DNA of 64,000 nt from NCBI RefSeq assembly GCF_006970445.1, contig NZ_CP033877.1:186001-250000 (forward strand), given 5' to 3'. This document shows, one piece after another, positions 6,087 through 45,452 of the stretch. The notes under the pieces are model-generated. The model was not told where the DNA came from. It saw nothing but the letters and a program-made list of their open reading frames with translations, and did no database searches. The position numbers and the translations under genes were made by a program. The DNA is from Stenotrophomonas maltophilia. Lineage in GTDB: Bacteria; Pseudomonadota; Gammaproteobacteria; Xanthomonadales; Xanthomonadaceae. Numbering within the stretch: the stretch's first letter is position 1; each line of letters starts with the position of its first letter.

Positions 6087-6103
6087 GCGGTGCGGGGATC
6101 GCC

Positions 6104-6126
6104 ATCCACGCATGGCGTGGATCTAC
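6104..6126 (-). repeat. SMAG-type palindrome
   Basis: On the minus strand it reads GTAGATCCACGCCATGCGTGG, a GTAG head plus a stem of ATCCACGC/GCGTGGAT type. It sits just downstream of gcdH and could form an mRNA 3' hairpin. Confidence 0.75.
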
Positions 6127-6165
6127 TGCACATGGCACCTGCTACGGCCACCTGGATGTGCTTTG

Positions 6166-6240
6166 GTAGGTGCCAACCTTGGTTGGCACATTCCTTCAGC
6201 GCCCGACCAGGCATTTGTGCGGACCAAGGTCCGCACCCAC
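6166..6240. repeat. SMAG-type palindromes, inverted pair
   Basis: GTAGGTGCCAACCTTGG begins the first copy at 6166-6189. The second, inverted copy at 6217-6240 has stem GTGCGGACC/GGTCCGCAC and a GTGG rather than GTAG head on the minus strand. The pair lies between convergent gcdH and trmL. Confidence 0.75.
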
Positions 6241-6269
6241 CAGGAGCGGTTCACACCCACCTGAGGCGG

Positions 6270-6749
6270 CTACGCGCCGCCAGCAAACCCGTGCTGCCGC
6301 CACGCTTCGTACATCACCACGGCAACGGTGTTGGAAAGGTTGAGGCTGCGGTTGTCCGGCCGCATCGGCAGGCGCAGGCGACGGCCATCGGGCAATGCAT
6401 CGAGCACGTCCTGCGGCAGGCCGCGGCTTTCCGGGCCGAACAGGAACGCATCACCGTCTTCAAAGGCCACGCTGTCATAGCGGACGCTGGCGCGCGTACT
6501 CAGGGCGAACAACCGCTTCGCTGCGATCCGCGCCAACGCGGTGTCCAGGTCGGGGTGCACCTGCAGGCGCGAGTACTCGTGGTAATCCAGGCCGGCGCGC
6601 TTGAGCTGCTTGTCTTCCAGTGCGAAGCCGAGCGGCTCGACCAGGTGCAGCTGCGCGCCGGTGTTGGCGCAGAGCCGGATCACATTGCCCGTGTTGGGCG
6701 GGATTTCCGGTTGGAACAGGATCACGTGGAACTGGGGCGCGGCATTCAT
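6270..6749 (-). CDS. trmL: tRNA (cytidine/uridine-34 2'-O)-methyltransferase TrmL
   Basis: This SPOUT-superfamily enzyme methylates the ribose of the wobble base (position 34) of certain tRNA-Leu species using SAM. The 159-residue length is normal for TrmL. The N terminus (HVILFQPEIPPNTGNVIRLCA), the middle FGPESRGLP and the C-terminal knot motif MRPDNRSLNLSNTVAVV are all diagnostic. The start at 6749 is supported by TACACT six bases upstream on the minus strand, which suggests a leaderless transcript. Confidence 0.95.
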   Translation of the reverse strand: MNAAPQFHVILFQPEIPPNTGNVIRLCANTGAQLHLVEPLGFALEDKQLKRAGLDYHEYSRLQVHPDLDTALARIAAKRLFALSTRASVRYDSVAFEDGDAFLFGPESRGLPQDVLDALPDGRRLRLPMRPDNRSLNLSNTVAVVMYEAWRQHGFAGGA

Positions 6750-7711: not shown

Positions 7712-10561
7712 ATGTCTCTCGCCCTTCGCCCGCGCGCTGCACTGCTGGCCGTCGCCCTCAGCACCGCCCTGGGTACGCTTGCGCCCACCTCTGCGCTTGC
7801 CGCCAAGCCGGCGGCACCGGCCAAGGTCGATATCCCGTACGAGCAGTTCACCCTGCCCAACGGCCTGCGCGTGATCGTGCATACCGATCGCAAGGCGCCG
7901 ATCGTCGCGGTCAATGTCTGGTACCACGTGGGCAGCAAGGACGAGCCGGCGGGCCGTACCGGCTTCGCGCACCTGTTTGAACACCTGATGTTCCAGGGCA
8001 GCGAAAACCACGACGGCGAATTCTTCGAACCGTTCAAGCAGGTCGGTGCCACCAACCAGAACGGCACCACCAACACCGATCGCACCAACTATTTCGAGAA
8101 CGTGCCGACCACTGCGCTGGACATGGCGCTGTGGATGGAATCGGACCGCATGGGCCATCTGGTCGGTGCGATTGACCAGGCCGCGCTGGACGAGCAGCGT
8201 GGGGTGGTGCAGAACGAGAAGCGCCAGGGCGAGAACCAGCCCTACGGCCAGGCCTGGGACCAGCTCAACAAGGCGATGTATCCGGCCGGACACCCGTACC
8301 ACCACGGCGTGATCGGTTCGATGAACGATCTCAACGCTGCTTCGCTGGATGACGTGAAGACCTGGTTCCGCACCTGGTACGGCCCGAACAATGCAGTGCT
8401 GGTGCTGGCCGGCGACATCGACCTGGCCACCGCCAAGGAAAAGGTCGGCAAGTACTTCGGCAGCATCCCGGCCGGCCCGACCATGGCGCAGCCGGCCGTG
8501 AACGTGGCCAAGCGCAGCGCCGACACCCGCGAGACGATGACCGACAAGGTGCCGCAGGCGCGCATCTACCGCGCCTGGAACGTGCCGCAGGTCGGCACCA
8601 CCGAGGTCGATCAGCTGCAGCTGTTCGCGCAGGTGCTGGGCGGTGCCAAGTCCTCGCGCCTGAGCCAGCGCCTGCAGCACCAGGACAAGCTGGTGGACAG
8701 CATCGCGTCGGGCCTGTCGACCTCGCAGCTGGGTTCGAACTTCGTGATCATGGCGACGGTCAAGCAGGGCCAGGACCCGGCCAAGGTCGAGAAGATCATC
8801 GACGAGGAACTGGACCGGCTGATCAAGCAGGGCCCGACCGCGGCCGAGCTGGAGCGCGCGAAGACCGGTGCCCGCGCCGGTTTCATCCGCGGCATCGAGC
8901 GCATCGGTGGCTTCGGCGGCAAGGCCGACGCACTGGCCGAGTGCGCGGTGTTCACCGGCGACCCGGGCTGCTTCCGCACCTCGCTGGCCAACATCGAAAA
9001 GGCCAGTGCCGCTGATCTGAGCCGGCTCGGCGCGCAGTGGCTGGACAAGGGCAGCCACACCCTGGTGATCGCACCGGGTGAACGCGTGGCACTGAAGGAA
9101 GATCCCAGCCAGGCACCGAAGCCGTTCAATGTGCCGGCAGTGGACCCGAAGTACAGCACCCTGCCGGAGCAGGTCGACCGCAAGGCCGGCGTGCCGCAGA
9201 CCCGCGAGTTCCCGCAGCTGAAGTTCCCGGCACTGCAGCGCGCCACGCTGAAGAACGGTACGCAGGTGATCCTGGCCGAGCGCCACGAGATCCCGGTGGT
9301 GCAGTTCAGCTACCAGTTCCCGGGCGGCTTCAGTGCCGACCAGGGCCGCAAGCCGGGCACTGCCAACTTCACCATGAGCCTGATGACCGAAGGCGCCGGC
9401 AAGCTGGGTTCGCTGGCCTTCGCCGATGCCGCTGACGCACTGGGCGCCAGCCTGGATGCCTCGGCCGGCCTGGATTCGATGAGCGTGGACCTGTCGGCGC
9501 TGAAGGAAAACCTGGCACCGTCGCTGGCGCTGTACCGCGACCTGCTGCGCGAACCGCGCTTCGAGCAGGGCGAGATCGACCGGGTCAAGGCGACCTGGAT
9601 CGCCGGCATCCAGCAGGAGAAGGTCAACCCGGGTGCGGTGGCGATGCGCGTGCTGCCGCCGCTGCTGTACGGCAAGGGCCACCCGTATGCCATTCCGTTC
9701 ACCGGTAGTGGTGACGAGGCGGCGATCAACGGCCTGACCCGCGAAGATCTGGTCGATTTCCACCACGACTGGCTGCGCCCGCAGAACGGCACCCTGATCG
9801 TGGTCGGTGACACCACCCTGGCCGAGATCGTGCCGCTGCTGGACAAGCAGCTGGCCGACTGGAAGGCCAGCGGCGATGCCCCGCAGGTGAAGGCGGCCAC
9901 CGATGTCGCGCTGCCGAAGGGACCGCGCGTGTTCCTGATCGACCAGCCAGGCGCGGTGCAGGCCAATCTGTTCGCTGGCCAGGTGGTCGCGCCCTCCAGC
10001 GCATCCAGCTCGACCCGCTTCGACATCGCCAATGGCGTGATCGGCGGTGACTTCACCTCGCGCCTGAACATGAACCTGCGTGAGGACAAGCACTGGTCGT
10101 ATGGTGCGCGCAGCAGCGCGATCAACTCGGTGGGCCAGCGCCCGTGGATGGCCAGTGCGCCGGTGCAGATCGACAAGACCGGCCCGGCGATGGCGGAAAT
10201 GCGCAAGGAAATCGCCGCGTTCGCTGATGGCAGCAAGCCGGCCACCGCCGCCGAGGTCAACCGCATCCGCAACATCCAGACCCTGAGCTTGCCCGGTGCC
10301 TACGAGACCGCCAGTGCGGTGGCCGCGACCATCGGCTCGATCGTGCAGTTCAAGCGCCCGGACGACTACGTGCTGCGCCGTAAGGCCGAGATCGAGGCGA
10401 TGACCCCGGCGCAGGTGCAGCAGGCCGCCACCGAGATCAAGCCGCAGGCCCTGACCTGGGTGGTGGTGGGTGACCTCAAGCAGACCGAAGCGGCCGTGCG
10501 TGCGCTGAACCTGGGCGAGGTGACGGTGATCGACGCCGAAGGCAACCCGGTCAAGAAGTAA
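7712..10561 (+). CDS. M16 family zinc metallopeptidase (two-domain, secreted)
   Basis: This is a protein of about 949 residues with an N-terminal signal peptide (ending near SALAAKPA), so it acts in the periplasm or outside. The first M16 module holds the inverted zinc motif HxxEH in FAHLFEHLMFQG; the second module, from about residue 500 (LKNGTQVILAERHEIPVV), lacks it and is structural, as in other pitrilysin-like pairs. Family members degrade peptides and transit or signal peptides. The ATG at 7712 is preferred over the in-frame GTG at 7694 because AAGGA lies seven bases upstream. No partner gene is adjacent; a GC-rich hairpin (10571-10592) follows it. Confidence 0.92.
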   Translation: MSLALRPRAALLAVALSTALGTLAPTSALAAKPAAPAKVDIPYEQFTLPNGLRVIVHTDRKAPIVAVNVWYHVGSKDEPAGRTGFAHLFEHLMFQGSENHDGEFFEPFKQVGATNQNGTTNTDRTNYFENVPTTALDMALWMESDRMGHLVGAIDQAALDEQRGVVQNEKRQGENQPYGQAWDQLNKAMYPAGHPYHHGVIGSMNDLNAASLDDVKTWFRTWYGPNNAVLVLAGDIDLATAKEKVGKYFGSIPAGPTMAQPAVNVAKRSADTRETMTDKVPQARIYRAWNVPQVGTTEVDQLQLFAQVLGGAKSSRLSQRLQHQDKLVDSIASGLSTSQLGSNFVIMATVKQGQDPAKVEKIIDEELDRLIKQGPTAAELERAKTGARAGFIRGIERIGGFGGKADALAECAVFTGDPGCFRTSLANIEKASAADLSRLGAQWLDKGSHTLVIAPGERVALKEDPSQAPKPFNVPAVDPKYSTLPEQVDRKAGVPQTREFPQLKFPALQRATLKNGTQVILAERHEIPVVQFSYQFPGGFSADQGRKPGTANFTMSLMTEGAGKLGSLAFADAADALGASLDASAGLDSMSVDLSALKENLAPSLALYRDLLREPRFEQGEIDRVKATWIAGIQQEKVNPGAVAMRVLPPLLYGKGHPYAIPFTGSGDEAAINGLTREDLVDFHHDWLRPQNGTLIVVGDTTLAEIVPLLDKQLADWKASGDAPQVKAATDVALPKGPRVFLIDQPGAVQANLFAGQVVAPSSASSSTRFDIANGVIGGDFTSRLNMNLREDKHWSYGARSSAINSVGQRPWMASAPVQIDKTGPAMAEMRKEIAAFADGSKPATAAEVNRIRNIQTLSLPGAYETASAVAATIGSIVQFKRPDDYVLRRKAEIEAMTPAQVQQAATEIKPQALTWVVVGDLKQTEAAVRALNLGEVTVIDAEGNPVKK

Positions 10562-10601
10562 GGCAATACCCGGCCCGCCATGTGGCGGGCCGGCTCCCCC
10601 G

Positions 10602-10624
10602 GTAGTGCCGGCCGCTGGCCGGCA
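10602..10624 (+). repeat. SMAG-type palindrome
   Basis: GTAGTGCCGGCCGCTGGCC followed by GGCA. This is the commonest SMAG variant in the window. It lies between the M16 peptidase and the DUF4156 gene, just after a 10-11 bp GC hairpin at 10571-10592 that lacks a T tract. Confidence 0.85.
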
Positions 10625-10739
10625 ACTCCGTGACCCGACGGCGGGGTCAGCGCCCCCTGCGGGGAATCCGACCCGCACCGGCTACCCCCGATTCAGGCTG
10701 TTCAGGCAGAATCCCCCCATACCCTTCCAGGATCTGCCC

Positions 10740-11057
10740 ATGCGCGTTCTGCTGCTTTCTTCCCTGCTGCTCACCGTCACCGCCTGTACCTGGGTGCCGA
10801 TCGAACCGGCCGGCAAGGCGACCCGCGTGCTGCCGGCAGGGCCGGTTCCGGCCGGCTGCATCGCCAAGGGCGAGGTGGTGGTGACCGTGAAGAGCAAGGT
10901 CGGCTTCTACAACCGCAACCCGCTGCGGGTGCAGGAAGAGCTGGAAACCCTGGCCCGCAACGAGGCCCCGAGCGCCGGCGCCAATGCCGTGCAGGCCGCC
11001 GCGGCCCCCGCAGATGGCAGCCAGCGTTTCGCCGCCTTCCAGTGCCCGCCGCGCTGA
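10740..11057 (+). CDS. DUF4156 domain lipoprotein
   Basis: This 105-residue protein starts with a short lipoprotein signal (MRVLLLSSLLLTVTAC) whose lipobox Cys is at residue 16. The mature part (VLPAGPVPAGCIAKGEVVVTVKSK...RVQEELETLARNEA...GANAV) fits the DUF4156 family of small envelope lipoproteins, whose function is not established. AGGA lies upstream of the ATG at a usable distance. A probable -10 (CAGAAT) is about 30 bp upstream. It sits between the M16 peptidase and the ole cluster and is probably transcribed alone. Confidence 0.85.
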   Translation: MRVLLLSSLLLTVTACTWVPIEPAGKATRVLPAGPVPAGCIAKGEVVVTVKSKVGFYNRNPLRVQEELETLARNEAPSAGANAVQAAAAPADGSQRFAAFQCPPR

Positions 11058-11116
11058 ACGCTTCACCATACGGCCAAGGCTGAATTCGTAAAGATGCGGT
11101 GAAAGCCCGGGGGTTA

Positions 11117-11122
11117 TAGAAT
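11117..11122 (+). promoter_or_regulatory. Candidate -10 box for oleA
   Basis: TAGAAT (within TATAGAAT, 11115-11122) is 37 bp upstream of the oleA ATG. No clear -35 is visible. It is the best promoter candidate for the olefin genes. Confidence 0.4.
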
Positions 11123-11159
11123 AGCGCCCCCTTTTGCCTGAGCCTTGGCGCTAACCTCG

Positions 11160-12176
11160 ATGCTCTTCAAGAATGTCTCGATCGCCGGCCTGGCACACGT
11201 CGACGCGCCGCATACGCTGACGACCAAGGAAATCAACGAACGCCTGCAGCCGACGTTGGATCGCCTGGGTATCCGCACCGATGTGCTCGGCGACATCGCC
11301 GGCATCCACGCCCGCCGCCTGTGGGACAACGGCGTGCTTGCGTCGGACGCTGCCACCATGGCCGGCCGCAAGGCACTGGAAGATGCGGGCATCACCGCGA
11401 CCCAGGTTGGCCTGCTGGTCAACACCTCGGTCAGCCGCGACTACCTGGAGCCGTCCACCGCCTCCATCGTGTCGGGCAACCTCGGCGTCAGCGACGAATG
11501 CATGACCTTCGACGTCGCCAATGCCTGCCTGGCCTTCATCAACGGCATGGATATCGCCGCGCGCATGATCGAGCGTGGTGATATCGACTACGCGCTGGTG
11601 GTGGACGGCGAGACCGCCAACCTGGTGTACGAAAAGACCCTGGAGCGCATGACCGCCCCGGACGTCACCGCCGACGACTTCCGCAACGAGCTGGCCGCCC
11701 TGACCACCGGTTCAGGCGCCGCCGCGATGGTGATGGCGCGCTCGGAGCTGGTGCCTGACGCCCCGCGCTACAAGGGCGGCGTGACCCGCTCGGCCACCGA
11801 GTGGAACCAGCTGTGCCTGGGCAACCTGGACCGCATGGTCACCGATACCCGCCTGCTGCTGATCGAAGGCATCAAGCTGGCGCAGAAGACCTTCAGCGCC
11901 GCCAAGATCGCACTCGGCTGGGCCGTGGAAGAGCTCGACCAGTTCGTCATCCACCAGGTCAGCCAGCCGCACACCGCCGCGTTCATCAAGAACTTCGGCA
12001 TCGACCCGAAGAAGGTCATGACCATCTTCGGCGAGCACGGCAACATCGGCCCCGCCTCGGTGCCGATCGTGCTGAGCAAGCTCAAGCAGCTGGGCAAGCT
12101 GAAGAAGGGCGATCGCATCGCGCTTCTGGGTATCGGCTCGGGCCTGAACTGCTCGATGGCAGAAGTGGTCTGGTAA
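11160..12176 (+). CDS. oleA: OleA, thiolase-fold acyl-CoA condensing enzyme
   Basis: OleA joins two long-chain acyl-CoAs head-to-head by a non-decarboxylative Claisen condensation to a beta-keto acid, the first step of long-chain olefin synthesis. The 338-residue product matches xanthomonad OleA throughout, with the active-site Cys in VANACLAFING, the His motif VIHQVSQPHTAAF and the Asn region FGEHGNIGPAS of KAS III-like enzymes. The ATG at 11160 gives the MLFKNVSIAGLAH start typical of the family; a TTG at 11145 is in frame but less likely. oleB, oleC and oleD follow, so the pathway is complete. A hairpin separates oleA from oleB. Confidence 0.96.
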   Translation: MLFKNVSIAGLAHVDAPHTLTTKEINERLQPTLDRLGIRTDVLGDIAGIHARRLWDNGVLASDAATMAGRKALEDAGITATQVGLLVNTSVSRDYLEPSTASIVSGNLGVSDECMTFDVANACLAFINGMDIAARMIERGDIDYALVVDGETANLVYEKTLERMTAPDVTADDFRNELAALTTGSGAAAMVMARSELVPDAPRYKGGVTRSATEWNQLCLGNLDRMVTDTRLLLIEGIKLAQKTFSAAKIALGWAVEELDQFVIHQVSQPHTAAFIKNFGIDPKKVMTIFGEHGNIGPASVPIVLSKLKQLGKLKKGDRIALLGIGSGLNCSMAEVVW

Positions 12177-12233
12177 AAAAGTCACCGCTGGCCTGCTGAG
12201 CGTTTGGCAGCGATGATTTTTCCAAGTGTCCAG

Positions 12234-12252
12234 GGGCCGGTTCTACCGGCCC
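12234..12252 (+). terminator. Hairpin between oleA and oleB
   Basis: GGGCCGG and CCGGCCC form a 7 bp stem with a TTCTA loop, followed by TTTCT. The T tract is short, so it may only reduce readthrough or stabilise the oleA message. Confidence 0.5.
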
Positions 12253-12271
12253 TTTCTACAGGTGCGATTCG

Positions 12272-13162
12272 ATGTCCCAGCTTCCCGGTTACCCCGCCCA
12301 CCCGCAGCGCTTCGAGGTACGCCCCGGCCTGTCGATGAACTATCTCGACGAGGGCCCGCGCGATGGCGAGGTGGTGGTGATGGTGCACGGCAACCCGTCG
12401 TGGAGCTATTACTGGCGCACGCTGGTGGCCGGCCTGTCGGACACGTACCGCTGCATCGTGCCGGACCACATCGGCATGGGCCTGTCGGACAAGCCGGACG
12501 ATAGCCGCTACGAGTACACCCTGCAGTCGCGCGTGGACGATCTCGACGCGCTGCTGAAGCACCTGGGCATCACCGGTCCGGTGACGCTGGCGGTGCACGA
12601 CTGGGGCGGCATGATCGGCTTCGGCTGGGCGCTGTCGCACCACGACCAGGTGAAGCGGCTGGTGGTGCTCAACACCGCCGCGTTCCCGATGCCGGCGGCG
12701 AAGACGATGCCGTGGCAGATCGCGCTGGGCCGCCACTGGAAGATCGGCGAGTGGATCATCCGCACCTTCAACGCGTTCTCGTCCGGTGCCTCGTGGCTGG
12801 GCGTGGAACGGAAGATGCCGGCTGATGTGCGCCGCGCCTACGTGTCGCCGTACAACAGCTGGGCCAATCGCATCAGCACCATCCGCTTCATGCAGGACAT
12901 CCCGCTGTCGCCGGCCGACAAGGCCTGGTCGCTGCTGGAACGCGCCGGCAAGGCACTGCCCTCGTTCGCCGACCGCCCGGCCTTCCTCGGCTGGGGCCTG
13001 CGCGACTTCGTGTTCGACCATCACTTCCTGAAGGGCTTCCAGGCCGCGCTGCCTCGGGCCCAGGTGCATGCCTTCGAGGACGCCGGCCACTACGTGCTGG
13101 AAGACAAGCAGGACGTGCTGGTGCCGGAGATCCGCGCGTTCCTGGACAAGAACCCGATCTGA
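12272..13162 (+). CDS. oleB: OleB, beta-lactone decarboxylase (alpha/beta hydrolase)
   Basis: OleB is a haloalkane-dehalogenase-like alpha/beta hydrolase that removes CO2 from the beta-lactone made by OleC to give the cis-olefin. The 296-residue protein shows the oxyanion motif VMVHGNPSWSYYWR, the nucleophile elbow VHDWGGMIG with catalytic Asp, and a C-terminal His in EDAGHYVLED, as expected. It is 95 bp downstream of oleA, after a hairpin, and is separated from oleC by an opposite-strand YkgJ-family gene and a SMAG pair. Confidence 0.95.
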   Translation: MSQLPGYPAHPQRFEVRPGLSMNYLDEGPRDGEVVVMVHGNPSWSYYWRTLVAGLSDTYRCIVPDHIGMGLSDKPDDSRYEYTLQSRVDDLDALLKHLGITGPVTLAVHDWGGMIGFGWALSHHDQVKRLVVLNTAAFPMPAAKTMPWQIALGRHWKIGEWIIRTFNAFSSGASWLGVERKMPADVRRAYVSPYNSWANRISTIRFMQDIPLSPADKAWSLLERAGKALPSFADRPAFLGWGLRDFVFDHHFLKGFQAALPRAQVHAFEDAGHYVLEDKQDVLVPEIRAFLDKNPI

Positions 13163-37875: not shown

Positions 37876-38294
37876 TGCGGTAGTGCCGGCCGCTGGCCGG
37901 CAACCACGTGCTCCTTCGGGCACCGCAGGGAAGCCGGCCAGCGGCCGGCACTACCGGAGCCCCGAAATCCGATCAGGGTGGCCAGGGAAGGGCCAGACAA
38001 CGCCGGCCGGTCGGGGGACCTGCCGGCGTTGTTGTATCGATGCAAGGGTGCAGCGCGCGGGCAGCGTCAATCAGGCGCACCCCCGGCCCCGGCAACTTGG
38101 CCGAAACCCTGTGAAACCCGGCATCGGATTGATCCAGCAGGAGTTTTGCCCGGACACCCGTGACCAGAACGGGCCACCACCGATCTTCACATCAATCAAG
38201 ATCGGCAGAAGGGTCAAAATGAGATAGGGCGCACACTTTAAAGCGGTGCTATGCTCCGCGGCTCACCAGGGGACGCTGGCGGCGGGTGCAGGGA
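37876..38294. other. Intergenic region aceA/diguanylate cyclase
   Basis: This 419 bp region has no convincing gene. It holds a SMAG pair, then an inverted repeat CCGATCTT-N10-AAGATCGG (38180-38205), and a possible extended -10 (TGCTATGCT, 38247-38255) about 40 bp before the diguanylate cyclase gene. No riboswitch fold is recognisable by eye. Confidence 0.55.
37880..37954. repeat. SMAG-type palindromes, inverted pair
   Basis: GTAGTGCCGGCCGCTGGCC starts at 37880 and its inverted copy ends CTAC at 37954. It lies just after aceA and could act as a 3' hairpin. Confidence 0.82.
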
Positions 38295-39335
38295 ATGACC
38301 GGCAGGGGTGCGGCCGAGAACAGTGATGTGACGACAGGTATCGCCCGGGTGGCGATGGCCGAGATCGTGCACGCTCTGTTGTCAGATGCCGAGGTGGCAT
38401 TGTTTGCCAGATTCGCCCGCGCATGCAAGCTCCGTGCCGGACAGTGGCTGTTCCAGCGTGGCCACCGCGGCGAGCGCATGTATGTGATCCTCGAAGGCCA
38501 GATCGAACTGGACTTCGGCGAGGACCTGGTGATCAAGACGCTCGGGCAGCACGAGTTCTTCGGAGAACTGGGCCTGCTGGTCGGCGACCACCTGCGCAGC
38601 GCCAGTGCGCGCGCGCTGGTCGACTGCGATGTGCTGGAACTGGGGCCGGCTGATTTCCATCGGCTGGTCGAATCCGATCCCGGGCTGGTGGCCTACTTCC
38701 TGCGCCGCACGATCATGCGCGTGCTGACCAACGAGCAGGCACTGATCAGCCAGTTGCGCCGGCGCAACCACGATCTGGAAACCGCGCTGGACAACCTCTA
38801 CATCACCACCCACCAGCTGACCCACACCCGTGAGCTGGTGCGCACCGATGAACTGACCGGCCTGCACAACCGCCGTGGCCTCACCCTGTACCTGCAGGAG
38901 TGCCGTGAGCATGCCGAGGGGCCGCCGCAGGCGCTGCTGCTGATCGACTGCGACCGTTTCAAGCAGATCAACGACCGCCACGGCCACCAGGCCGGCGACC
39001 GCGTGCTGCAGAGCATGGGCAACATCCTGCGCTCGATGGCCGGCGAACAGGACCTGGCCTGCCGGCTCGGCGGCGATGAGTTCTGCCTGATGCTGCGCCG
39101 TGGCAACCACGAGATCGTGCAGCACGCCGCCGAGTTCATCCTCAGCGCGGTGCACGGCCTGCTAGAGCGCAGCCATGGCACGCCGCACGTAAGCCTGGTC
39201 AGCATCGGAGCCAGCCTGCTGGATGCCGACGCGGACTGGAGCGAGTGGTATGCCAGCGCCGATCGGGCGCTGTACCGGGCCAAGCGCGATGGCGGCAACT
39301 GCCTGCGCTGGGTGGATGATCCGGACGACCAATAG
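38295..39335 (+). CDS. Diguanylate cyclase with cyclic-nucleotide-binding domain
   Basis: This protein of about 346 residues has an N-terminal Crp-type cNMP-binding domain (about 25-150), including the phosphate-binding cassette FFGELGLLVGDHLRSASARA with the canonical Glu and Arg. A helical linker and a C-terminal GGDEF domain follow, with an intact CRLGGDEFCLML, so it should make c-di-GMP. The upstream I-site position reads GEQD, not RxxD, so product inhibition is not expected. A GTG at 38286 or ATG at 38355 are other starts. It is 13 bp upstream of a nucleotide-cyclase gene, so a cyclic nucleotide made next door might control c-di-GMP output; that is inference. Confidence 0.85.
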   Translation: MTGRGAAENSDVTTGIARVAMAEIVHALLSDAEVALFARFARACKLRAGQWLFQRGHRGERMYVILEGQIELDFGEDLVIKTLGQHEFFGELGLLVGDHLRSASARALVDCDVLELGPADFHRLVESDPGLVAYFLRRTIMRVLTNEQALISQLRRRNHDLETALDNLYITTHQLTHTRELVRTDELTGLHNRRGLTLYLQECREHAEGPPQALLLIDCDRFKQINDRHGHQAGDRVLQSMGNILRSMAGEQDLACRLGGDEFCLMLRRGNHEIVQHAAEFILSAVHGLLERSHGTPHVSLVSIGASLLDADADWSEWYASADRALYRAKRDGGNCLRWVDDPDDQ

Positions 39336-39348
39336 GGAGATGCAGGCG

Positions 39349-41841
39349 ATGAATGGCGACAACGGAACGTCAGCCCCGCATAGCCCACAGCTACGCGCCC
39401 TGCTGTTCACCGATCTGTGTGATTCGCTGCAACTGGTCGAGCGGATCGGCGATGTGGCGGCGGCGAGCCTGTTCCAGGAACACGACCGCCTGGTGCTGGT
39501 GCTGCAGCACCGCTGGAATGGCCAGCTGATCGATCGCTCCGACGGCCTGTTCATGCTGTTCGAGCGCGCCATCGATGCATTGGGCTTCGCCCTGGACTAC
39601 CAGCGCGAACTGCATGCGCTGGGCCAGCAGCGCGCGATTGAACTGCGCGCGCGTGCCGGCCTGCACGTGGGTGACGTGCTGACCTGGGAAAACAGTGCCG
39701 AGGCGGTCCGCGTCGGCGCCAAGTCGATGGAAGTGGAAGGCCTGGCCAAGCCGATGGCGGCGCGCCTGATGATGCTGGCCCGCCCCGGCCAGATCCTGTT
39801 GTCGGCGGTAGCCGAATCGCTGACCCGCCGTGCCACCGATGCACTGGGCGAGCGCGGTACGCGCCTGCTGTGGAAATCGCACGGGCGCTGGCGCTTCAAG
39901 GGCGTGCCGGTGGTGCAGGAAGTGATCGAAGTGGGCGAGATCGGTGCGGCGCCGTTGCGCATGCCGCGCGCCAATGCCAAGGCGCGCCGTGACCTGCCGT
40001 TGTGGCGGCAGCCGCTGGTGCTGGCCGCTGAAGGTCTGGTACTGACGGTGGTGGTGCTGGGCGGCTGGCTGCTGCTGCGGCCGGAACCGGCAATCGCGTT
40101 TGCCGAGCGCGACTGGGTGGTGCTCGGCGATGTCGACAACCTCACCGGCGACCCGATCTTCGACGACTCGATGCGGCACGCGATCCGGATTGCGCTGGAG
40201 CAGTCGCGTTACGTGAACGTGCTGTCGGAGGGCAAGATCCGCGAAAGCCTGGAAATGGCGCGGCTCTCGGGCGATACCCGGCTCAACCGCGATACCGCGG
40301 CCGACGTGGCGGTGCGTGAGGGTGCGCGCGCCGTGCTGTTGCCAACCGTGCGGCAGAAGATCGGTGGCTACGAGCTGGCCATCGATGTCGCTGCACCCGG
40401 CACCGGCCAGGTGATCCAGACGTTCACCGCCACCGTGGATCGATCCGATCAGATGGTGTTCGCGGTGGACGATGTGGTCGGGCGCCTGCGGCGCGGACTG
40501 GGCGAATCGGTGGCGAGCCTGGAACAGTCGTTGCCGCTGCCGCGGGCATCGACCCAGGACCTGCGCGCACTGCGTGCATTCGCGCTGGCGGAAAGTGCAC
40601 TGGGCCAGCGTCGCTTCGAGGAAGCACGCAACCTCTACCAGGCCGCGATCGATATCGATCCTGGTTTCGCCCTGGCCTACATGGGCGTGGCCAAACTGCA
40701 TGCGCGCGTCGAGGAAGGGCGGCGCGCACGCGAAGCCATGCAGCACGCGCTGGACCTGCAGGATCGGCTGCCGCCGCGCGAGCGGCTGTACCTGAAAGCC
40801 TGGATGGCCGAGCTGGAGCCGGGCGGCTGGGCGCTGGAGCAATGGCGCACCCTGGCCAAGGTCTATCCGGATTCGTTCGCGGGGCTGTCCAACACGTCCT
40901 GGTACCTGCTGCAGGCCAACCAGTTCAGCGAGGCCGAACCCTATGCGCGTGCGGCCGCAGTGCCGCAGGATCCGCTGCGGCTGTATCCGCTGGTCCATCT
41001 GGTGCGGATACAGATCGCCGCCAACCAACCGCAGCTTGCCGCCGAAACACTGGCCCAGGCGCAGGTCCTGCGCGGTCGTGATGATGCTGATGAGACCGGC
41101 GTGGATGTGCTGGTGGCGCAGGGGCAGTACGCGAAGGCCGCGAAGCTGTTGCCGCAGATCCATGCCAGCGATGCCCTGCAGCAGCGGATGAAGCTGCGTG
41201 CGCAGCTCCTGCTGGCTGCCGCGCAGCGCGATTGCGCGGCCATGCAGCAGGCGGTACGCGAAGATGCACCGGCGCCGACGCTGATCGACCTCCAGGTACA
41301 GCGGCGCCTGCAGCACGCCAGCGTGGCGGCATTGTGCCCGGGCGCTGACCGCGCCGAGCTGCAGGCCATTGCCGCGCTGCTGCAGCCGATGCTGCAGGAG
41401 CGCGATGATCCCATGCTGCATGCCCGTGGCCTGCAGTGGCTGGCGCTGGTCCACCTGGCGCAGCGGCAGGGCCAGTTCGAACTGGCCAGGCGCTGGCTGG
41501 ACGAGCAGCGGCCCCTGCTGCGCAGCCTGCGCAGTCCGGTCGCGGACCGCTGGCTGCGCATCGTCAGCGCCATGGATGAGCTGCAGTTGCAGCGGCCCGA
41601 GGCTGCCCGCACCCTGATCGAGCCGATGCTCGATGGCAACGAGCCGGTGCAGGCGCACGTCGTGCTGCTGCTCGCGCTGCGCGCACAGGGCGATGAAGCC
41701 GCCGTACGCCGCCAGCAGGCCTGGCTGGCCCAGCATCGCGGCCAGGCCATTGCCGAGGTCACTGCCCTGCAGGTGTGGCAACCGCTGAACGTATATGACG
41801 TCTCCACGTGGGCAACGCCGGCCACGGCCGGCGCACCCTGA
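39349..41841 (+). CDS. Class III nucleotide cyclase-TPR membrane protein of a peptide modification cassette
   Basis: This protein of about 830 residues has an N-terminal class III cyclase homology domain (about 15-175), one membrane helix (about 223-244), and a large C-terminal region with a CsgG/FlgO-like section (DWVVLGDVDNLTGDPIFDDS...) and TPR repeats. Both metal-binding Asp residues are present (FTDLCDS, Asp22; DRSDGLF, Asp65), but the transition-state Asn of the VNxAAR motif is Pro (KPMAARL), while the Arg is kept. It fits the family catalogued as a putative peptide modification system cyclase. GGGAG precedes ATG 39349; ATG 39340 is an alternative. It is convergent with the precursor peptide gene, with 7 bp between stops. 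Confidence 0.82.
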   Translation: MNGDNGTSAPHSPQLRALLFTDLCDSLQLVERIGDVAAASLFQEHDRLVLVLQHRWNGQLIDRSDGLFMLFERAIDALGFALDYQRELHALGQQRAIELRARAGLHVGDVLTWENSAEAVRVGAKSMEVEGLAKPMAARLMMLARPGQILLSAVAESLTRRATDALGERGTRLLWKSHGRWRFKGVPVVQEVIEVGEIGAAPLRMPRANAKARRDLPLWRQPLVLAAEGLVLTVVVLGGWLLLRPEPAIAFAERDWVVLGDVDNLTGDPIFDDSMRHAIRIALEQSRYVNVLSEGKIRESLEMARLSGDTRLNRDTAADVAVREGARAVLLPTVRQKIGGYELAIDVAAPGTGQVIQTFTATVDRSDQMVFAVDDVVGRLRRGLGESVASLEQSLPLPRASTQDLRALRAFALAESALGQRRFEEARNLYQAAIDIDPGFALAYMGVAKLHARVEEGRRAREAMQHALDLQDRLPPRERLYLKAWMAELEPGGWALEQWRTLAKVYPDSFAGLSNTSWYLLQANQFSEAEPYARAAAVPQDPLRLYPLVHLVRIQIAANQPQLAAETLAQAQVLRGRDDADETGVDVLVAQGQYAKAAKLLPQIHASDALQQRMKLRAQLLLAAAQRDCAAMQQAVREDAPAPTLIDLQVQRRLQHASVAALCPGADRAELQAIAALLQPMLQERDDPMLHARGLQWLALVHLAQRQGQFELARRWLDEQRPLLRSLRSPVADRWLRIVSAMDELQLQRPEAARTLIEPMLDGNEPVQAHVVLLLALRAQGDEAAVRRQQAWLAQHRGQAIAEVTALQVWQPLNVYDVSTWATPATAGAP

Positions 41842-41848
41842 TGGCGGG

Positions 41849-42145
41849 TCAGCCGTCGATGCGCTCGCCGACCTTGCCGGCTTCGAAGCAGAACACCACG
41901 GTCATGGCCGCCACCGACCCGGACAGGTGGGCCTGCAGCCCATCACGCACTCGGCTCAGCTCCTCGACCGAGGCCAGGGTGCCGATCTTCATGCAGTCGT
42001 TCTCGCCGACCGCACCGTCCAGGCCGATCGAGGCCAGGGCCTTGGCCGGCGAAGCGGTGAAGTGGCTGCGGAAGTCGTCGTTGCCGATCAGGTGGTCCAG
42101 CAGGGTGCTGGCGTCTGCGGCGGAAAGGCGGGGATGGGTGCTCAT
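41849..42145 (-). CDS. Putative modified (RiPP-like) precursor peptide with Nif11/NHLP-like leader
   Basis: This 98-residue protein has a leader-like N-terminal half, LLDHLIGNDDFRSHFTASP then AKALASIGL (15-42), which matches the FRxxFxxxPxxALxxiG pattern of Nif11/NHLP leaders. The C-terminal part has two Cys, Cys51 (ENDCMKIG) and Cys86 in MTVVFCFEAGKVGERIDG. No Gly-Gly leader cleavage site is obvious; GSVAAM (76-81) is one possible junction. It is encoded opposite to the cyclase and divergently from the SagB-like dehydrogenase. This setting, and its likeness to the family catalogued as a putative modified peptide, suggest it is the substrate. Its product is unknown. Confidence 0.75.
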   Translation of the reverse strand: MSTHPRLSAADASTLLDHLIGNDDFRSHFTASPAKALASIGLDGAVGENDCMKIGTLASVEELSRVRDGLQAHLSGSVAAMTVVFCFEAGKVGERIDG

Positions 42146-42283
42146 GGGGATCGTCCGTAGGTGGAGTTTCTCGTATCGGCCGCGACAGCCTGCCATTGAG
42201 GGCCGCGCTGTGCACGTCGCTAAAGTTGGCCGCGCTGCGGTCGTTGCTGCTATGCCGGTTGTGCGGCAGAAGGAAGGAAACCC

Positions 42284-43450
42284 ATGCGCCTGCGCCGCTG
42301 CGCCAGCCTGATGTTCGAGCCCCGCGAGGCGGTCACCCTTGACCTGCGCGCGATGCTGGCCGGCCAGGCCGAGATGGACAGCCAGATCAGCTGGGTAGCC
42401 CTGGCTGCCCATCTGGACCAGCCGCTGCCGGTGGACGCCGAGGAGCGCCAGCTGCTGGGCGAGCTCAGCGCGCACCGCTGGAGTGAACCGCCCGCCGATG
42501 CCTCCCCGGCCATGCTGGCCCGCCTGGTCGAGCAGGGCCTGCTGCTGACCGACCCGCCCAGCGAGGTGGGGCACCAGCTGCGCGACGAGGCGCTGCGGCG
42601 CAGCCAGTGGTGGCCACTGGCCGCGCTGGCCCATCGCCACGCGCGCTGGCAGGCCGTGGACAGCGTGGAGGACATGCGTCGGCAGGGGTTGGATACCGCT
42701 GCCGGCCTGCGCCAGCGCCTCGGGCCGCCGCCACCCGTGGTGCAGCCCATGCAGGGCGATTACCAGCCCCTGCCGCGCAGCGAAGAGGCCGCGTTCGACG
42801 CACTGCTGGCGCGCCGCACCACCTGCCGCAACTTCGACCCGCAGCGCGCGCTGCCGCTGCCGCTGCTGGCCCAGGTGCTGCAGCGCACGCTGATGGCCCA
42901 GGCGGTGCAGAAGGTCGAGCGCGATACCGAGTTCCTGAAGAAGAACGTGCCCTCCGGTGGTGGCCTGCACCCCACCGAAGGCTTCCTGCTGGTGCAGAAC
43001 GTGGAAGGACTGGTACCGGGCCTGTACCACTACCACCCGGTGCAGCACGCCGTGCTGCCGCTGCCCTCGCCACCGCCGCAGGCACTGCCGGCGCTGGCGC
43101 GGCGGATGCTGTCCGGGCAGGAGTGGTTCGCCGATGCGCCGGCGCTGCTGGTGCTGGCGCCGCGTTATGACCGCTGCTTCTGGAAGTACCGCAACCACGC
43201 CAAGGCGCACCGTGCGGTGACGCTGGATGTCGGCCACATCTCGCAGCTGCTGTATCTGTGCGCGACCGAGCGCGGGCTGGCGGCGTTCGTGACAGCGGCC
43301 ATCAACGACGCCGATGTCGATCGCGCCTTCGGCTTCGATGGCATCGGCCAGAGCGCGATGGCCATCTGTGGCCTGGGCTGGCGCAGTGCCACGCTGGACA
43401 CGGCCGAATTCGATCCCGCCGGGCGGGTGGCGACGGGCGACGACCGCTGA
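42284..43450 (+). CDS. SagB-related FMN dehydrogenase (putative peptide maturation dehydrogenase)
   Basis: This 388-residue protein has a C-terminal nitroreductase-fold domain (about 165-385) with the SagB-type signature VPSGGGLHPTEGFLLVQN, RRTTCRNFDPQRALPL and LDVGHISQLLYLCATERGLAAF. In azole RiPP systems SagB homologues use FMN to oxidise azolines to azoles. The N-terminal 150 residues are a less conserved helical extension that may bind the leader. A strong AGGAAGGAAA precedes the ATG. It is divergent from the precursor gene. No YcaO cyclodehydratase is in the window, so the substrate oxidation may be of another kind. Confidence 0.82.
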   Translation: MRLRRCASLMFEPREAVTLDLRAMLAGQAEMDSQISWVALAAHLDQPLPVDAEERQLLGELSAHRWSEPPADASPAMLARLVEQGLLLTDPPSEVGHQLRDEALRRSQWWPLAALAHRHARWQAVDSVEDMRRQGLDTAAGLRQRLGPPPPVVQPMQGDYQPLPRSEEAAFDALLARRTTCRNFDPQRALPLPLLAQVLQRTLMAQAVQKVERDTEFLKKNVPSGGGLHPTEGFLLVQNVEGLVPGLYHYHPVQHAVLPLPSPPPQALPALARRMLSGQEWFADAPALLVLAPRYDRCFWKYRNHAKAHRAVTLDVGHISQLLYLCATERGLAAFVTAAINDADVDRAFGFDGIGQSAMAICGLGWRSATLDTAEFDPAGRVATGDDR

Positions 43451-43469
43451 GCGGCCGCCGCCCCGGCGT

Positions 43470-45452
43470 TCACGCCGCCTCGAAATCGACCAGCACCGCA
43501 CCGTCGCCGACCTGGTCGCCGGCCTTGGCGCGGTAACCCTTGACCGTGCCATCGGCCGGCGCCTGCAAGGTGTGCTCCATCTTCATCGCTTCGAGCACCA
43601 CCAGCGGCGTGCCGCGCTTGACCTCGGTGCCGGCGGCGACCAGCGTGGCCACGATCCTGCCCGGCATCGGTGCCAACAGGCTGCCGGCGTCGGCGACGGC
43701 GTGGTCCGATTCGCCCACCGGATCGTGCAGGGTGAAGCGGTGCTGGCCGTCGGTGCCGAACAGGTACAGCTGGTCACCGTCGCGCAGCAGCTGCAGCGAC
43801 CAGCGACGTTCACCCAGCTGCACCGCCAGGCCCTGCACATCGGCCGTGCCGATCACCTGCACCGGTGCCGCGTCGTCGCACTGCACACGCCAACCGTCGG
43901 CCTGTACCCACACCTTCAGCGCGTGCCGGCGTTCGCCCTGCTGCAGCGGCAGCACGCGCGGCGCGGACGCGCCGAGGCGCCAGCCGTCCTGCGCCTGCCA
44001 CGGCGAATGCGGGTCGCGCGCATCGCTGCCGGCGCGCGCGGTCGTGGCCACGGCGGCAACCGCCGCCAGCAGCCACAGGGCATCATCGCTGTCGCCCACC
44101 GCACTCAGCGCGGCCTGCTCGCGTTCGATCAGCGCGGTATCCAGCTTGGCGTGCGTGAACGAATCGGTGTTCACCAGGCGGCGCAGGAAACCGGCATTGG
44201 TGGTCACGCCCACCACCTGGCAGTCGGCCAATGCCTGGCTCATGCGGCGCAGTGCGGCGTCGCGGTCCACGTCCCAGACAATCAGCTTGGCAATCATCGG
44301 GTCGTAGTACGGCGTGATGCTGTCGCCTTCCTCGACGCCGGTATCCACGCGCACATGGGCCGACGGCGTCGGCAGGCGCAGGCGGCGCAGGGTGCCGGTG
44401 GACGGCAGGAAGCCGCGGTCGGCATCCTCGGCATACAGCCGCGCTTCGATCGCGTGGCCGTGGATGGCCAGCTGGTCCTGGCGCAGCGGCAGCGGCAGGC
44501 CCGAGGCCACGCGCAGCTGCCACTCCACCAGGTCGGTGCCGGTGATGTACTCGGTCACCGGGTGCTCGACCTGCAGGCGGGTGTTCATTTCCATGAAGTA
44601 GAAATCGCCATCCGGGCCGGCGATGAATTCCACCGTGCCCGCACCCTCATAGCCCACCGCACGCGCGGCATCGACCGCGGCCTTGCCCATCGCAGCACGA
44701 CGCTCGGGACTCATGCCCGGCGCGGGTGCTTCTTCCAGTACCTTCTGATGGCGGCGCTGCACCGAGCAGTCGCGCTCGAACAGGTAGACCGCCTCACCGT
44801 GGCTGTCGCCGAACACCTGGATCTCGATATGGCGCGGGCGCTCGACATACTTCTCGACCAGCACGTGGTCGTTGCCGAACGCCGAGGCCGCCTCGCGCTG
44901 GCAGCTGGCCAGTGCATCGACGAAGTCTTCGCTGCGTTCGACCTTGCGCATGCCCTTGCCACCGCCACCGGCGCTGGCCTTGATCAGCACCGGGTAGCCG
45001 ATGCCGTCGGCCTGCGTGCGCAGGAAGTCCGGCGCCTGCTGGTCACCGTGGTAACCCGGCGTCAGCGGTACACCGGCCTTGGCCATCAGCGCCTTGGCCG
45101 CGCTCTTGTCGCCCATCGCGCGGATGGCGCTGGCCGGCGGCCCGATGAAGGTGATGCCGGCGGCGGCGCAGGCATCGGCGAAGTCGGCATTCTCGGACAG
45201 GAAGCCGTAACCGGGGTGGATCGCCTGCGCGCCGGTCAGGCGTGCGGCGTCGAGCAGGGCATCGCCGCGCAGGTAGCTCTCACGCGCGGCGGCCGGGCCG
45301 ATGTGGATGGCTTCGTCGGCCAGGCGCACGTGGCGTGCGTTGCGGTCGGCATCGGAATACACCGCCACGGTGGCGATGCCGAGGCGCCGGCAGGTGGCGA
45401 TGACGCGGCAGGCGATCTCGCCGCGGTTGGCGATCAGGACTTTGGTGAACAT
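43470..45452 (-). CDS. liuD: Methylcrotonyl-CoA carboxylase alpha subunit (biotin carboxylase/BCCP)
   Basis: This protein of about 660 residues carboxylates its own biotin with ATP and bicarbonate. It has the biotin carboxylase ATP-grasp domain (MFTKVLIANRGEIACRVI, KASAGGGGKGM, EMNTRLQVEHPVTE) and a C-terminal biotinyl domain with VLEAMKMEHTL (biotin-Lys). The operon with isovaleryl-CoA dehydrogenase and the carboxyltransferase marks it as the leucine-pathway enzyme rather than a propionyl- or acetyl-CoA carboxylase. An ATG at 45470 (MTEPVAM) is an alternative start. The order liuA-liuB-liuD lacks liuC here. Confidence 0.92.
   Translation of the reverse strand: MFTKVLIANRGEIACRVIATCRRLGIATVAVYSDADRNARHVRLADEAIHIGPAAARESYLRGDALLDAARLTGAQAIHPGYGFLSENADFADACAAAGITFIGPPASAIRAMGDKSAAKALMAKAGVPLTPGYHGDQQAPDFLRTQADGIGYPVLIKASAGGGGKGMRKVERSEDFVDALASCQREAASAFGNDHVLVEKYVERPRHIEIQVFGDSHGEAVYLFERDCSVQRRHQKVLEEAPAPGMSPERRAAMGKAAVDAARAVGYEGAGTVEFIAGPDGDFYFMEMNTRLQVEHPVTEYITGTDLVEWQLRVASGLPLPLRQDQLAIHGHAIEARLYAEDADRGFLPSTGTLRRLRLPTPSAHVRVDTGVEEGDSITPYYDPMIAKLIVWDVDRDAALRRMSQALADCQVVGVTTNAGFLRRLVNTDSFTHAKLDTALIEREQAALSAVGDSDDALWLLAAVAAVATTARAGSDARDPHSPWQAQDGWRLGASAPRVLPLQQGERRHALKVWVQADGWRVQCDDAAPVQVIGTADVQGLAVQLGERRWSLQLLRDGDQLYLFGTDGQHRFTLHDPVGESDHAVADAGSLLAPMPGRIVATLVAAGTEVKRGTPLVVLEAMKMEHTLQAPADGTVKGYRAKAGDQVGDGAVLVDFEAA

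Follow-up and report, generated by a model that had tools for sequence, protein, structure and literature searches.

Introduction

The closest described relative of the locus studied here is the XC_0249/XC_0250 pair of Xanthomonas campestris. According to the main text of its original description (PMC3770947), XC_0250 is a class III cyclase with tetratricopeptide repeats (TPR) whose product is cyclic GMP (cGMP) and not cyclic AMP, and the adjoining XC_0249, composed of a cyclic nucleotide monophosphate (cNMP)-binding and a GGDEF domain, binds cGMP, whereupon the synthesis of cyclic di-GMP (c-di-GMP) rises; the loss of either protein reduces biofilm formation and virulence. The authors state there that Stenotrophomonas maltophilia possesses adjacent homologues of both proteins, and the TPR part of XC_0250 is termed a domain of uncharacterised function in this paper as well as in a 2019 review (PMC8042644). 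The terms “peptide”, “dehydrogenase” and “XC_0251” are absent from the main text of PMC3770947. Here we analyse positions 38286 to 43450 of a 64,000-nucleotide stretch of S. maltophilia DNA (contig NZ_CP033877.1, positions 186,001 to 250,000; in the following “the window”), where the genes of a precursor peptide and of a SagB-type dehydrogenase adjoin the homologues of XC_0249 and XC_0250.

As in X. campestris, these two homologues are adjacent, and the catalytic and cGMP-contacting residues listed for the pair are kept; the peptide and the dehydrogenase beside it are, in contrast, not described in the main text of PMC3770947. With ComQXPA the locus has in common the adjacency of precursor, modifying enzyme and receptor, the formation of distinct groups and a sensing part which is more variable than the output part. 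The agr pherotype systems display the same traits, with linked signal precursor, enzyme and receptor occurring in groups. Linkage of these three components and a matched polymorphism of receptor and peptide between conserved flanks are both found in the present locus. In contrast to ComQXPA and agr, however, the receptor would be a membrane guanylate cyclase with TPR instead of a histidine kinase, the enzyme is a SagB/ThcOx-like dehydrogenase, the host is Gram-negative, and communication between cells is a prediction from the genes.

Among the ribosomally synthesised and post-translationally modified peptides (RiPPs), the linear azole-containing peptides and thiazole/oxazole-modified microcins (LAP/TOMM), exemplified by microcin B17 and streptolysin S, rely on a dehydrogenase of the same SagB/McbC type, but here YcaO is lacking and no Cys position is kept across the peptide cores. 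Unlike that of ThcOx and of the cyclodipeptide oxidase AlbAB, the substrate would be a leader-bearing peptide. The leader family is that of the NHLP/Nif11 RiPP precursors (TIGR04509), from which the locus differs in that no dedicated C39/ATP-binding cassette (ABC) exporter tracks the peptide. TPR domains binding short peptides are known from the RRNPP receptors of Gram-positive bacteria and peptide-gated membrane guanylyl cyclases from the natriuretic-peptide receptors of animals, both of which may be regarded as functional analogies only.

On balance, we consider it slightly more probable than not that the locus constitutes a self-contained, pheromone-like peptide-signalling system which is wired into the XC_0249/XC_0250 cGMP circuit. 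Its most telling property, which is invisible in a single sequence, is the co-diversification of sensor, peptide and dehydrogenase.

Results

Gene content and relation to XC_0249/XC_0250

The gene content of the locus is firmly established. The three open reading frames (ORFs) on which the original prediction was built lie exactly where it had placed them. That at 39349-41841 (plus strand) encodes an 830-residue membrane guanylate cyclase of the XC_0250 family with a predicted periplasmic TPR sensor, that at 41849-42145 (minus strand) a 98-residue NHLP-related precursor peptide, convergent with the cyclase gene, and that at 42284-43450 (plus strand) a 388-residue, SagB/ThcOx-like peptide dehydrogenase of the flavin mononucleotide (FMN) nitroreductase fold. 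The families named for them were recovered as well, with NCBIfam scores of 1084.7 bits for TIGR04510 (curated cut-off 400), 92.1 bits for TIGR04509 (34) and 579.3 bits for TIGR04511 (240), respectively. Though real, these three genes are not the entire cassette, as the first gene of the operon (38286-39335, plus strand), which ends 13 nucleotides (nt) ahead of the cyclase start, had been left outside. It codes for a 349-residue cGMP receptor/diguanylate cyclase of the XC_0249 type and is part of the same unit as cyclase, peptide and dehydrogenase. The locus is flanked by genes for malate synthase, isocitrate lyase and two carboxylase-type subunits.

The XC_0250 residues D41, D71, L73, A150, L157 and A161 all recur, at a constant offset of 6, as D35, D65, L67, A144, L151 and A155 of the window cyclase. 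Likewise, the five cGMP contacts F73, E90, H98, N145 and E146 of XC_0249 correspond, at a constant offset of 4, to F77, E94, H102, N149 and E150 of the GGDEF protein. The latter scores 68 bits against the Pfam family cNMP_binding and 132.4 bits against GGDEF, and its closest match in the PDB is 5h5o_A (149.5 bits), which, judging from sequence, we take to be an XC_0249-type domain; the XC_0249 structure is cited as 4KG1 in PMC3770947. From these correspondences we firmly regard both genes as orthologues of XC_0250 and XC_0249. Since the cyclase belongs to the XC_0250 family and an XC_0249 match is located upstream, the RiPP genes are placed inside a known cGMP/c-di-GMP circuit. The original prediction, which had regarded all three families as merely putative, is to be corrected for the cyclase, since the main text of PMC3770947 demonstrates cGMP synthesis for XC_0250, a member of the same family, and a response to cGMP for XC_0249.

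Two observations on cyclase residues may be added. In the cyclase of locus L193, five of the six listed XC_0250 residues are found at the same numbering, with I replacing L157. Furthermore, the metal-binding Asp designated D41 in the main text of PMC3770947 corresponds to D35 of the window cyclase, and it is D22 which aligns with the FTD-site Asp of Ma1120. As both D35 and D22 are invariant in alignment A2, the published assignment of the metal-binding Asp may merit re-examination.

An AlphaFold2 model of the cyclase (mean predicted local distance difference test, pLDDT, 88.5) resolves a class III cyclase domain (residues 14-197; 39388-39939, plus strand), a helix designated H218-242 (40000-40074, plus strand) and a TPR superhelix (residues 405-821; 40561-41811, plus strand). 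The 50 Foldseek matches listed for this model, among them 1ybu, 5d0e and 2w01, all concern the cyclase domain. The helix is predicted to be the single transmembrane segment (Kyte-Doolittle 2.16) and, by charge, to run N-in/C-out, as K and R are commoner before than after it in 82 of 83 genomes. With moderate confidence the model thus suggests a cytosolic cyclase domain and a periplasmic TPR sensor, the hypervariable part proposed to bind the ligand. A Ser/Thr-kinase-like domain, recognised by eye, is fused to the same transmembrane and TPR sensor in L078 (2354-5239, minus strand; G073:C175), with neither peptide nor dehydrogenase beside it on the 8-kb contig, which suggests that the sensor module can be swapped between output domains.

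Co-occurrence and conserved arrangement

Searches covered 151 genomes of the window's order, 369 of its class and 91 of Stenotrophomonas. In the order sample, matches above the cut-off to TIGR04509, TIGR04510 and TIGR04511 come from one and the same set of 32 genomes; the co-occurrence which the original prediction had anticipated is hence borne out, and wide occurrence of the peptide gene without the other two genes, named there as its refutation, is not seen. Sub-cut-off matches occur in 9 further genomes for TIGR04511 and in 109 further ones for TIGR04510, the latter mostly with its TPR part. Of the 369 genomes in the class sample, the 5 with the peptide above cut-off are also the 5 with the dehydrogenase above cut-off, all of the window's order; sub-cut-off TIGR04511 matches occur in 71 further genomes. 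Within Stenotrophomonas, 90 of 91 genomes possess the dehydrogenase and all 90 also the GGDEF, cyclase and peptide genes, a presence which fits a core signalling role better than an accessory antibiotic cluster.

The arrangement is equally conserved. GGDEF, cyclase and dehydrogenase genes are colinear in 86 of the 90 genomes, the other four deviating solely through gene overlaps of 1-14 nt, and the peptide gene lies opposite to the dehydrogenase strand in all 90; a single peptide is present in 81 and extra peptides in 9. Across genera, 131 of 136 loci have peptide and cyclase strictly tail to tail; in L184-L187 the two overlap tail to tail, which leaves L059 (genome G091) as the sole differing locus. 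In 9 of 9 sampled genomes with a cNMP domain 88-96% identical to 5h5o, probably Xanthomonas proper, peptide and cyclase adjoin the gene of this domain.

Viewed from the GGDEF gene, the link is looser: this gene is found without the cassette in G106, G111, G232 and G242 (4 of 4 examined), and for several cassette loci of more distant genera (e.g. L059, L068, L069 and L077) the sequence analysed around them contains no GGDEF match. In L197, one of the nine genomes of probable Xanthomonas, the dehydrogenase is broken after about residue 90 by an insertion element (approximately 5200-6550), with peptide and cyclase matches of full length; the inserted gene is presumably an IS1595-like transposase.

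Hypervariability between near-identical flanks

All segments could be used for 83 of the 90 Stenotrophomonas genomes, the other seven being left out before pairs were counted. The pair counts are non-independent observations, and because permutation p-values fall to the attainable minimum (0.003) in all comparisons, even in the controls, we use effect sizes only.

The cassette is, as firmly observed, hypervariable between near-identical flanks. The flanks are at least 97% identical in 346 of 3403 genome pairs, for which the median identity amounts to 95% for the GGDEF protein, 74% for the cyclase domain, 47% for the dehydrogenase and 32% for sensor and peptide alike. A flank identity of at least 97.5% is reached by 193 pairs, 138 of which fall into different sensor groups (60% cut-off). 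Along the cyclase of these 138 pairs, identity declines from 81-89% (residues 1-80) to as little as 10% (residues 641-680). Upstream, the GGDEF protein is 93-100% identical apart from its final 29 residues (82%); downstream, the carboxylase is at 96-100% in 13 of 16 bins. The extreme pair, L053/L148, combines flanks of 99.1% and a GGDEF protein of 97% identity with a sensor of 39%, a peptide of 37% and a dehydrogenase of 45%. Depending on the cut-off, the 83 genomes form 16 to 38 sensor groups. Compared with L060, 17 of 17 genomes of a second genus have GGDEF proteins of 91-99% identity, cyclase and dehydrogenase being at 51-61% and 34-58%, respectively, in 15 of them and both high (92-95%) in two.

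Dehydrogenase remnants are present beside an intact copy at G183:C1:238963-239067, G217:C295:11831-12626, G233:C55:123806-123973 and G248:C1:366424-366516, and extra dehydrogenase copies in G166, G212 and G218. Beyond the dehydrogenase, extra precursor-like peptides with no sensor gene seen beside them are encoded in L110, L118, L128, L130, L131, L159 and L161. In L054 (G096) a sensor-like ORF with transmembrane segment and TPR, lacking the cyclase domain, directly follows the dehydrogenase (10435-12360, plus strand); it may be a decoy, an immunity protein or a remnant. Taken together, remnants, extra copies, extra peptides and the cyclase-less sensor look like fossils of allele change, as if one allele had been replaced by another.

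Sensor and peptide form matched groups

Where more than one peptide was available, that with the lowest E-value was chosen for the identity medians, partial correlations, profiles of the 138 pairs and tree counts, and that nearest to the cyclase for the Rand index and the TPR-core correlations; the latter choice changed the peptide in 5 of 90 genomes and removed three apparent exceptions.

That sensor and peptide form matched groups is firmly observed. With the flanks controlled for, partial correlations reach 0.87 for sensor and peptide, 0.81 for sensor and dehydrogenase and 0.76 for peptide and dehydrogenase, compared with 0.13 and 0.09 for the control pairs GGDEF-peptide and malate synthase-peptide; between these extremes lies the value of 0.43 for cyclase domain and peptide. 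The adjusted Rand index between sensor and peptide groups is 0.95 at a cut-off of 55% (25 versus 21 groups) and 0.99 at 65% (35 versus 34), and 0.69, 0.91 and 0.85 at 50, 60 and 70%, respectively. On the tree of the flanks, 28 sensor groups require 47 changes (minimum 27) and 27 GGDEF groups 27. The sensor tree requires 30 changes for 30 peptide groups, 27 for 27 dehydrogenase groups and 42 for the GGDEF groups. Sensor, peptide and, largely, dehydrogenase therefore share a history unlike that of the surrounding chromosome.

Subtype comparison divides the peptide into a leader part (residues 1-60; 41966-42145, minus strand), whose border is not a known cleavage site, and a variable core part (residues 61-98; 41852-41965, minus strand), the identity of which correlates with TPR identity. 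In 82 pairs with dehydrogenases at least 85% identical, this correlation of TPR and core amounts to r=0.95, compared with 0.35 for TPR and leader, 0.29 for TPR and the cyclase front half, 0.21 for TPR and dehydrogenase and 0.17 for core and front half. No pair combines a TPR part at least 85% identical with a core below 60% (0 of 48), nor the reverse (0 of 58).

Nucleotide identity in 150-nt bins delimits an allele-exchange tract at 40686-42035, to which no strand is assigned and which comprises the 3' part of the TPR-coding region and the peptide core. Between the window and L048, L092, L094 and L098, identity is 77-100% up to 40685, 61-85% at 40686-41885, 79-83% from there to 42035 and 79-99% beyond; six other close relatives keep 85-98% inside the tract. 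At the protein level, identity between the window and L048 is 90-100% for the cyclase as far as residue 450 and 43-83% thereafter, 93-100% for peptide residues 1-60 and 67-73% for peptide residues 61-90, the last 8 residues not being scored, and 92-100% for the dehydrogenase.

Within a subtype, ratios of nonsynonymous to synonymous substitution rates (dN/dS) of 0.08-0.32 for the core and of 0.07-0.17 for the TPR part (8 pairs) indicate purifying selection. The same is observed for the entire peptide, with dN/dS of 0.08-0.34 in 7 of 8 pairs; the pair of the window and L099 gives 0.53, its leader part reaching 2.43 on few changes. Between subtypes (4 pairs), dN and dS of the TPR part rise to 0.27-0.31 and 0.77-0.84, compared with 0.01-0.04 and 0.25-0.41 in the front half, which points to an old, diverged allele and not to recent drift. 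Because cyclase and peptide genes lie tail to tail, a single tract of about 1.3 kb holds both the TPR-coding and the core-coding end, which would explain the upkeep of the antisense arrangement.

Exchange between genera as a common recent event is not supported: the nearest TPR neighbour belongs to another genus in 17 of 135 genomes versus 13 of 135 for the cyclase front half, and TPR parts of different genera are at most 50% identical.

Dehydrogenase and chemistry of modification

The dehydrogenase carries the SagB signature PSGGGLHPTEGF named in the original prediction and scores 99.8 bits against TIGR03605 (cut-off 78.4); fold comparisons agree on a SagB-type FMN dehydrogenase. A profile search for YcaO (PF02624) gave no match in the 4.55-Mb genome to which the window belongs, and YcaO is missing in 31 of the 32 sampled cassette genomes, the sole match being on another contig. 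The lack of YcaO, already noticed in the window, thus extends to the genomes, and azole chemistry is probably not made; mainly for this reason we hold an azole RiPP of the LAP/TOMM type to be unlikely. The composition of the core speaks less clearly against azoles: the last 20 residues lack Cys in 77 of 155 distinct peptides, and C, S and T altogether in only 5 of 155, the true core border not being fixed in either count. In relatives, the Cys preceding FE is replaced by A, T, F, L or M. The weight that we give to a signalling system is independent of core composition.

Homologues of the dehydrogenase with 51-55% identity occur in Streptomyces, Kribbella and Kitasatospora (P0092, P0093, P0095, P0096, P0097, P0105 and P0110), one actinobacterial homologue residing on an 8.2-Mb contig; judged from these identities, the gene has apparently been transferred into actinobacteria. 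Plasmid carriage was dismissed, the 36 records found being distant relatives only, all below 60% identity.

Discussion

In the mechanism which we favour, the 98-residue precursor would consist of an NHLP-type leader followed by a short variable core. The SagB/ThcOx-like dehydrogenase would grip the leader by its N-terminal domain and oxidise the core without the help of a cyclodehydratase, for which a Cα/Cβ desaturation is the least bad chemical guess that we can offer. The modified core might then by some route reach the periplasm or the medium and would bind to the TPR superhelix of the guanylate cyclase, thereby setting the cytosolic output of cGMP. In response to cGMP, the adjacent cNMP-GGDEF protein would produce c-di-GMP and thus promote biofilm-type behaviour. 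Core and TPR domain would represent matched specificity groups which are swapped together by recombination; as the conserved tail-to-tail order places both specificity regions on one short tract, ligand and receptor could be changed in a single recombination step via these 1.3 kb. Ligand binding, chemistry and export, and hence the recognition of a dehydrogenase-modified peptide by a periplasmic TPR domain in control of cGMP synthesis, are what we infer; for peptide and TPR domain as ligand and receptor our confidence is moderate. The RiPP-like cassette proposed originally is retained as far as peptide and modifying enzyme are concerned, but the locus is better explained by peptide signalling than by a plain RiPP natural-product cluster. 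Among the literature matches listed, in which subscription journals are mostly uncovered, none deals with the TIGR04509/TIGR04510/TIGR04511 triad or with a peptide input to XC_0250.

Several points weigh against such a signalling system. The main confound is the very adjacency of the TPR-coding and core-coding ends, as a single exchange could yield the correlation without any binding. In L158, L160 and L161 the dehydrogenase region alone has been exchanged (approximately 42186-43535, 47-71% nt identity), cyclase and peptide being more similar, so that the enzyme can move independently. According to the main text of PMC3770947, biofilm formation is restored by the cyclase domain of XC_0250 on its own, which makes the sensor dispensable for activity, and for XC_0249 another input is described in PMC3749722, namely the interaction with RpfG under diffusible signal factor (DSF) signalling. 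Locus L059 (G091) comprises five near-identical peptides, a dehydrogenase and a TPR protein with a degenerate cyclase domain, and shows no XC_0249-type match; cGMP is hence not always the output, and the peptide-sensor core can outlive it. Binding, activation and modification by or of the peptide are putative assignments made from sequence. Finally, in 35 neighbourhoods examined by rough ORF calling, with 30 clusters listed, neither a C39/ABC exporter nor a leader protease is seen conserved beside the cassette, an ABC-transporter-like cluster appearing in 4 of the 35, and a C39 peptidase match is present in only 17 of 32 cassette genomes. In the window's own genome, the C39 match falls in a 267-residue frame. 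A dedicated C39/ABC exporter is not supported.

An interbacterial weapon, i.e. an antibacterial RiPP whose hypervariable sensor acts as immunity or producer-sensing protein, with cGMP answering to the cell's own or a foreign toxin, appears improbable to us. Matched hypervariable pairs between conserved flanks are also a feature of bacteriocin loci, and the extra peptides in 9 of 90 genomes as well as the sensor-like protein without cyclase in L054 would suit such a role. It agrees poorly, however, with a locus that is present in 90 of 91 Stenotrophomonas genomes, encodes a single peptide in 81 of 90, has no exporter seen conserved nearby and contains a sensor fused to a signalling enzyme which is linked to its cGMP receptor.

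We judge it similarly doubtful that the oxidised peptide stays on the TPR domain of its own cell as a cofactor or sensor module acting in cis, co-diversification then being structural co-adaptation. Neither exporter nor protease having been found with the cassette and the dehydrogenase belonging to a flavoenzyme family, this idea has its appeal, but it hardly explains why 25-35 sensor groups (55-65% cut-offs) exist between near-identical flanks or why exchange has occurred repeatedly.

Still less probable is an ordinary RiPP cluster under cGMP control, in which hypervariability would reflect product diversification and the TPR part would merely hitch-hike by adjacency. The exchange tract spanning both gene ends is precisely what this explanation requires; it leaves unexplained, however, that leader and cyclase front half do not follow (r=0.35 for TPR and leader, 0.29 for TPR and front half, 0.17 for core and front half) and that the TPR part shows raised dN, too, between subtypes (0.27-0.31 versus 0.01-0.04 in the front half). 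A Pycsar-type anti-phage system of cyclase and cNMP effector diversified by phages is scarcely credible and not supported, as, apart from weak matches (21-33 bits) of the GGDEF protein's cNMP domain to PADLOC models of TIR effectors, PycTIR and PycC, no PADLOC model is matched by cyclase, peptide or dehydrogenase, the cyclase does not qualify as PycC-type, the effector is a GGDEF enzyme, and the variable part is predicted to be periplasmic.

How the guanylate cyclase XC_0250 is controlled has been a standing question since 2013, and for a pheromone-like signalling system wired into its circuit the present locus offers a candidate ligand, a candidate maturation enzyme and a candidate binding domain. 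Whether it represents the first peptide-gated guanylate cyclase of bacteria, with an oxidised peptide as pheromone, many private groups in Stenotrophomonas and the same arrangement in Xanthomonas, is in our estimation evenly balanced. Should this prove true, Gram-negative bacteria would gain a peptide-pheromone system, bacteria a peptide-gated nucleotide cyclase and SagB-type dehydrogenases a cyclodehydratase-free role. The matched groups predict which strains would respond to one another and which would not, as if closely related strains of Stenotrophomonas and Xanthomonas, which matter in clinics and on crops, were using different private chemical languages.

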